DNA of 64,000 nt from NCBI RefSeq assembly GCF_965363235.1, contig NC_134838.1, positions 14,478,441 through 14,542,440 of the forward strand, in the 5' to 3' direction. The notes below the pieces were generated by a model. It made no database searches. It was not told the DNA's origin and saw only the letters and a list, made by a program, of their open reading frames with translations. The DNA comes from Mytilus galloprovincialis. Its lineage: Eukaryota > Mollusca > Bivalvia > Mytilida > Mytilidae. Positions 12,205 through 32,564 of the stretch are shown piece by piece (position 1 is the stretch's first letter; every line of letters starts with the position of its first letter). The translations under genes were made by a program, and so were the position numbers.

Positions 12205-13341
12205 CAGGGCCGTAACTACCTATGAGGCAGGGGCCTCCCCTGAATTTTCTTCACCAATTTTTTTTTAAGTAATAAAATAAGATATTGACAATATGTACAC
12301 GAAAAAAAATGAATTTATATTATAAACAACACAAGTTTACAGTTTTAACAGTGTTATCATGATACGTGGTATGTCTGTCGTTTTTCAGATTTTTGATCGA
12401 AAGTGAACCGTTTCAGTTACTTTTTTTTGTTTTTTCGTGTGGCCGTCCGTCTGTTATTCAGTATTGTGGGGGTCAGTATTCGTACGAGAACACATATGAA
12501 ACTTTGCTTTCGATAATTTTGAATAAAAACTTACCTATTCACATTTCTTTGGGGGGCTCATTTAAACAGAGGAAGTTCCTTTTGTATTGTGAATCTTTTA
12601 AGATATCGGAAATACGTTACCGGCTGAATCAGCTGTTGGATCGTTTTTTAAAGTCTCCCGATCGTATGAGAACATAATTTATGATCAATGCCTTAGTAGG
12701 TAAACACTCCCATTCGTTGTAGCAGGGACTTTCTATACTAAGTATATACTAGACTAGTATAGAAGTCCCTGGTTGTAGTTATATACATGTCTGTTCAGCT
12801 TTCAACAATATTGAAATCCAGTCAAGATCCTCGATAAAAAAAAAATTATCTTGCGTTCTATTATCTTGCTTTATATGTTTTTTGAACTTACCAGTTTCTA
12901 AAAAAATATCTTTAAATACAGATAATAATTGTTTGCATGAAAATTGCTCCAAGGATCAAGCAAAACTGATCTTTCTTAAAGTAAGGAAATCGAAGGAAGA
13001 CGGGTAATTTTTAGCCAAATCATTTGAGAAAAACTGAATCCGCGGTCACAATATATTTCATGTTAACAATTATAGGTCAAAAGTACGGCCTTCACGACGG
13101 AGCCTTGGCTCACCCGAATAGCAATCTCAGCTTGTTTTTGCATAAGTTTGAGTTGCTTCCAGGTTCAAGCAATACTGATGTTTCTTAAAGTAAGGAAATC
13201 GAAGGGAAACGGGTAATTTTTAGCCAATGACTGAGGGGAAAAAATCGGCGGGGGCTGCGCCCAACCCCCTATATTGGAGGCCTCATTCGGCGGCCCCCAT
13301 ACCCCTGCCTCCCCTGAATTCGAACCCTAGTTACGGCCCTG
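12205..13341. mobile_element. 1.1-kb CAGGGCCG-TIR DNA element
   Basis: Ends CAGGGCCGTAACTA and TAGTTACGGCCCTG are inverted, with related GAGGCAGGGG/CCCCTGCCTC just inside. ATTCG flanks both sides as a direct repeat. The terminus is hAT-like, but 8 bp would be expected. Two ~95-bp direct repeats (12952-13045, 13160-13255) share AAAGTAAGGAAATCGAAGG. A family B fragment and a 49-bp palindrome are nested inside. No transposase. Confidence 0.75.
12723..12771. mobile_element. 49-bp palindromic micro-element, 7-bp TSD GTTGTAG
   Basis: CAGGGACTTTCTATACTA opens it and TAGTATAGAAGTCCCTG closes it. GTTGTAG is repeated directly at 12716-12722 and 12772-12778. It is closely related to the 37-bp copy at 32521. 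Confidence 0.8.
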
Positions 13342-32513: not shown

Positions 32514-32520
32514 TTCCTAG

Positions 32521-32557
32521 CAGGGACTTTCTATACTAATAGTATAGAAAGTCCCTG
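32521..32557. mobile_element. 37-bp perfect palindromic micro-element, 7-bp TSD TTCCTAG
   Basis: CAGGGACTTTCTATACT, a 3-base centre AAT, then the exact complement AGTATAGAAAGTCCCTG. TTCCTAG is repeated directly at 32514-32520 and 32558-32564. Confidence 0.8.
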
Positions 32558-32564
32558 TTCCTAG

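Follow-up and report, generated by a model that had tools for sequence, protein, structure and literature searches.

A 37-bp palindrome in the Mytilus galloprovincialis genome, read as a probable excision scar of a larger P-type DNA transposon

We analyzed a 64,000-nucleotide stretch of DNA, hereafter the window, from Mytilus galloprovincialis (assembly GCF_965363235.1, contig NC_134838.1, positions 14,478,441 to 14,542,440 of the forward strand). The 37-bp palindrome at window positions 32521–32557 is real and transposon-derived, and it is very likely the scar left where a larger P-type DNA transposon was excised and the chromosome was rejoined by end joining. The P-type excision scar is itself a known kind, and the window palindrome is best read as a further example. 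If right, this would make the mussel genome a natural archive of germline end-joining junctions from one type of break in a non-model animal, and would suggest that a distant lineage has the wide stagger of the fly P transposase in common with it, readable from sequence alone. It also carries a caution, in that a palindrome flanked by target duplications may be taken wrongly for an ultra-short transposon.

Structure of the window palindrome

In the window sequence, the tract CAGGGACTTTCTATACTAATAGTATAGAAAGTCCCTG forms a perfect inverted repeat around one central base and is directly flanked on both sides by TTCCTAG, at 32514–32520 and 32558–32564 (both on the + strand). The left arm (32521–32537, + strand) is the 17-nt sequence CAGGGACTTTCTATACT, a terminus common to the elements of 536–1949 bp described below and putatively what remains of the departed element's left end; the right arm (32541–32557, − strand) is the terminus in inverted orientation, also 17 nt. 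Between the arms lies AAT (32538–32540, + strand), a candidate 3-nt repair-junction filler that recurs, on either strand, at three further sites (L075, L141 and L157). Judging from the letters, the outer bases of this filler could equally belong to a terminus, as its base 18 or 19.

With a 361-bp query spanning the palindrome, the genome search returned, besides the locus itself, 70 matches that cover the palindrome and reach at most 21 bases beyond (40 of 60 candidates scored); the flanks are therefore without any other match among those scored. These unmatched flanks, the sequence and the excess over chance reported below bear out a preliminary description of the locus as a perfect 37-bp palindrome between TTCCTAG duplications.

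Short palindromes across the genome

Sixty-six micro-palindrome sites were judged independent: six of 27–33 bp, 58 of 34–45 bp, one of 55 bp and one entered as 47 bp (L057, for which 39 bp is also a possible reading). At the 58 sites of 34–45 bp, about 17 nt of each terminus surround a variable filler of 0–11 nt. The flanking duplications are exact at 41 of the 66 sites, carry one mismatch at 22 and more at three, and 40 of the 41 exact ones differ. Both arms match at 15 or more of 17 positions at 50 sites and are letter-perfect together at only 16 of the 66. Among the 49 sites of at least 34 bp with both arms at this level, we count 25 distinct fillers (0–11 nt); the recurring ones are AACT (seven sites), no filler, A and AACTT (five each) and AAT (four).

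Since the first 41 of the 66 sites were selected for carrying a duplication, the duplication rate among them is no estimate. Thirty loci chosen without regard to duplication gave 15 exact duplications, 11 with one mismatch and four with two, the boundaries being fitted to favor a match. Five of these (L144, L156, L160, L167 and L169) were dropped after inspection by eye, since they belong to repeats counted before, and the independence of the other 25 was judged by eye, without computer clustering. Before counting, we excluded a false five-copy cluster that lies within long elements and, for L039 and L042, a second, shifted reading of each locus; the flank-linked pairs L045/L070 and L066/L101, whose duplications differ, were counted apart.

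Most loci were located by the exact 18-mer terminus, which biases the set toward long arms, and for this reason we also ran a search with 11-bp arms only, allowing 22–35 bp. Among the 50 places listed of 185, none was of 22–31 bp, three were of 32, one of 33, 42 of 34 and four of 35 bp; most of the listed 34-bp places look like the ACAGAAT repeat described below, so that about eleven independent classes are distinguished by eye. On chromosome 1, 87 loci, hitchhikers included, were scored: 49 of 34–46 bp, 15 of 47–64 bp (one of which, L026, was scored as 62 bp and is really 598 bp), three shorter, ten longer and ten without a partner in the sequence retrieved around them. None was scored at 65–250 bp, and four (L090, L103, L113 and L137) carry no assigned length; two chromosome-1 loci, long or partly long, lie outside the 87. 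The ten entered as partnerless include L080–L082, which belong to a 281-bp group described below, L131, which starts like a long element, and the short forms L109 and L115, the latter of 27 bp with an exact duplication. The arms may be 17 or 18 nt long, the two lengths being indistinguishable in some forms; the 34-bp form can alternatively be read as two 18-nt arms sharing two bases.

At 38 sites with exact duplications, the symmetrized target motif favors a T at the third base ahead of the duplication and an A at the third base past it (0.76), and TT and AA are favored inside the duplication (about 0.6); the symmetry of the motif is by construction. No extra palindrome was found within single target sites (1.00 pairs within versus 1.05 between sites).

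Longer elements with the same terminus

The preliminary description had suggested looking for a longer relative with this terminus, and such elements were found. They share the 18-bp terminus, extended as CAGGGACTTTCTATACTAACRGGACT, are non-autonomous, measure 536–1949 bp (536–819 bp; about 600 bp, with 40 of 139 candidates scored; and 1949 bp) and carry 7-bp duplications, in agreement with the earlier view that the repeats flanking the palindrome are a target duplication. Duplications with at most one mismatch flank 13 of the 16 long-element rows examined, among which L026 and L029 are one element, L036–L038 have common flanks, and the sequence retrieved for L131 is too short for a judgment. 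The parents of 536–614 bp resemble MITEs in general: their termini are inverted, their duplications are of constant length and no transposase was seen in them. The 34–45 bp units differ from MITEs in being devoid of an interior and in having centers that vary. The arm variant CAGGGACAGTC occurs with no filler at L111, with AGTT at L085 and L120, and also as the terminus of a long element at C1:124504252, a pattern such as the excision of variant parents would produce.

Two elements of about 1.95 kb, L099 (C13:32766316-32768304) and L100 (C13:34048784-34050767), are 97% identical, carry the family termini and contain internal repeats of about 100 bp; their flanks look shared. For the 1.95-kb element, a Pfam search with the two longest reading frames gave no match. 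A sister terminus, CAGGGACTTGCTATTCTAACGGGACT, is present in three identical copies (C1:50940972, C2:8638140 and C4:58089378) and perhaps marks a second subfamily; its predicted scars were not found by a genome search with exact arms, a result that speaks against the excision reading.

Proposed excision and end joining

The sequences themselves show the duplications, the termini of the parents, arms of roughly 17 nt and fillers that vary; from these features we infer an excision event, a 17-nt stagger and an enzyme of the P superfamily. In the proposed series of events, a DNA transposon of the family would have inserted at the window site and duplicated TTCCTAG. A P-type transposase would later have excised it, making one cut at the element edge and the cut in the opposite strand about 17 nt within the element, and each broken chromosome end would have retained a 17-nt 3′ tail of the terminus. 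End joining of the two tails with a 3-nt filler would then yield duplication, 17 nt, AAT, 17 nt and duplication.

The P transposase of Drosophila is described as making its second-strand cut 17 nt inside the element (PMC7776569), and P-element donor ends as retaining 17-nt 3′ tails (PMC2895639). Table 1 of the latter paper gives repaired P{wa} sites as a duplication, up to 17 nt of terminus, an insert of 0–15 nt, up to 17 nt of terminus and a duplication. The mussel tracts have the same layout, with both duplication copies kept (exact), about 17 nt of each terminus and a variable short filler; they differ from the tabulated fly footprints in a 7-bp rather than an 8-bp duplication (8 bp in the P element, PMC7776569), in another terminus and in few short microhomology joins, whereas 20 of the 66 isolates in the fly table are long-microhomology joins that lost most of the tails (PMC2895639). 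Short forms of the microhomology type are rare among the tracts found, although many of them would escape a search that requires both arms. By analogy with the fly, apparent arms of 18–21 nt, such as those with fillers beginning AACG, could reflect either slight variation in the position of the cut or the copying of a few bases ahead of joining, the latter being described for P breaks (PMC2895639).

The 7-bp length of the duplication fits the 7 or 8 bp expected of the P superfamily. Galileo, a member of this superfamily in Drosophila, is reported with 7-bp target duplications and non-autonomous copies, and the likeness to the mussel family is drawn from these two features; it differs in that its inverted repeats are long and its preference for a target (GTATTAC) is stronger (PMC4168063). 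No intact and excised pair of one site was seen, either for the window palindrome, where the flanks are unmatched (40 of 60 candidates scored), or for the GTTGTAG repeat described below, where the 40 scored of 537 candidates held neither an empty site nor a full element. No title or abstract opening in the literature covered (P-element footprints, mussel P elements, MITEs and 7-bp duplications), outside which most subscription journals lie, reports the family, and a literature query with the first 11 letters of the terminus gave nothing on transposons by title.

Alternative origins of the palindromes

We consider it unlikely that the 34–45 bp palindromes are themselves mobile, as micro-MITEs of roughly two termini moved by a transposase acting on CAGGG ends. 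Such movement would accord with the different 7-bp duplications at many sites and with the recurrence of the AACT and AACTT forms and of one 32-bp form at two sites. However, few of the 25 fillers are repeated, arm variants common to the long elements are paired with different fillers, and the constant part is what excision would leave; the pairing of ends by a transposase in so short a unit is, moreover, doubtful. Viewed against amplification of one or a few master copies, the fillers are diverse, yet AACT, AACTT, A, none and AAT recur (4–7 sites each) and L162 and L163 share one form. Because the short forms have differing fillers, lie at unrelated sites and retain about 17 nt per terminus, the reading of the palindrome as an ultra-short transposon is not supported and is probably wrong. 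Of the ultra-short transposon family first proposed, the real DNA-transposon family, now with longer relatives, is retained, and the ultra-short unit moving as such is not; the proposal had been set against excision footprints, and footprint anatomy is what the 34–45 bp sites display.

Given the recurrent fillers and the two sites that share a 32-bp form, some short forms may have moved. L162 (C1:54867582) and L163 (C2:76028268) carry the same unusual 32-bp palindrome within different 7-bp duplications and are, as far as the letters tell, the strongest candidate for movement of a short form. It seems improbable that the forms recurring at 32 and 38 bp are genuine transposons (32–38 bp) remobilized after forming as scars; if true, they would be among the shortest mobile DNA units known.

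A second possibility keeps excision and changes the enzyme: the element would have been cut out by a transposase from outside the P superfamily, which likewise left each donor end with some 17 nt of terminus. We rate this as quite improbable, since P-type transposase domains are present in the genome (51 matches to PF21787 and 17 to PF21788 in a search with these two domain families) and 7-bp duplications are reported in the P superfamily (PMC4168063). What speaks for it is that, among the places listed, no P-type gene is linked to the terminus. None of the 55 P-type places listed lies within 80 kb of the 102 intact termini listed, the nearest listed pair being 84 kb apart (the intact-terminus pattern search listed 100 of 178 places), and no TNP-like transposase was found inside an element with the family terminus among the places listed; we therefore infer P membership of the family and do not claim it as established. 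On the other side, we know of no cut-and-paste superfamily besides P with so wide a stagger. An autonomous partner was not found among the places listed for the two domain families and the intact-terminus patterns, nor at the L139 locus. At L139 (C11:21215500-21219900), an open frame some 917 codons long encodes three TNP-like, that is P-type transposase, domains; the family terminus is absent from the locus, and no inverted termini were recognized within 4.4 kb. Similar frames are found at C4:40717541 and C5:8634294.

Assembly errors can arise from palindromes, but a chance or artefactual origin is rejected with near certainty, given the shuffled windows, the genome-wide repetition of the terminus and the many unrelated sites with exact duplications. 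The 18-mer terminus matches three times in the window (once at 12723 and twice in the palindrome), against a shuffle mean of 0.02 and none of 100 shuffles with three matches. The genome search that the preliminary description had suggested gave 422 + 409 = 831 exact termini in 1.385 Gb, against 0 for the reversed control.

Copies carried within other repeats

Many of the 831 termini are hitchhikers, as indicated by a sample of 93 paired rows in which 32 belong to the GTTGTAG repeat group and 10 to a second repeat with ACAGAAT duplications. The related 49-bp tract at 12723–12771 of the window (+ strand), with GTTGTAG duplications, lies inside a repeat of about 1.1 kb (window about 12205–13341) and occupies the identical position in the four other loci compared (L004, L014, L015 and L019). 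A 501-bp query at 12723 gave 537 first-look genome candidates, and all 40 scored match near end to end (481–514 bases). The scar is thus carried in the repeat as a fixed passenger of 45–59 bp, and the earlier count of two insertions with different targets does not hold, the tract at 12723 being a hitchhiker within a high-copy repeat and not an independent insertion in the window.

A shortened form of about 281 bp, with the same flanks and an ATTTAAC duplication, occurs at nine places on chromosome 1 (C1:28.3-29.6 Mb; L021–L025, L028 and L080–L082). Its shared flanks within about 1.3 Mb indicate that a local repeat carries it, and the group represents one shared site.
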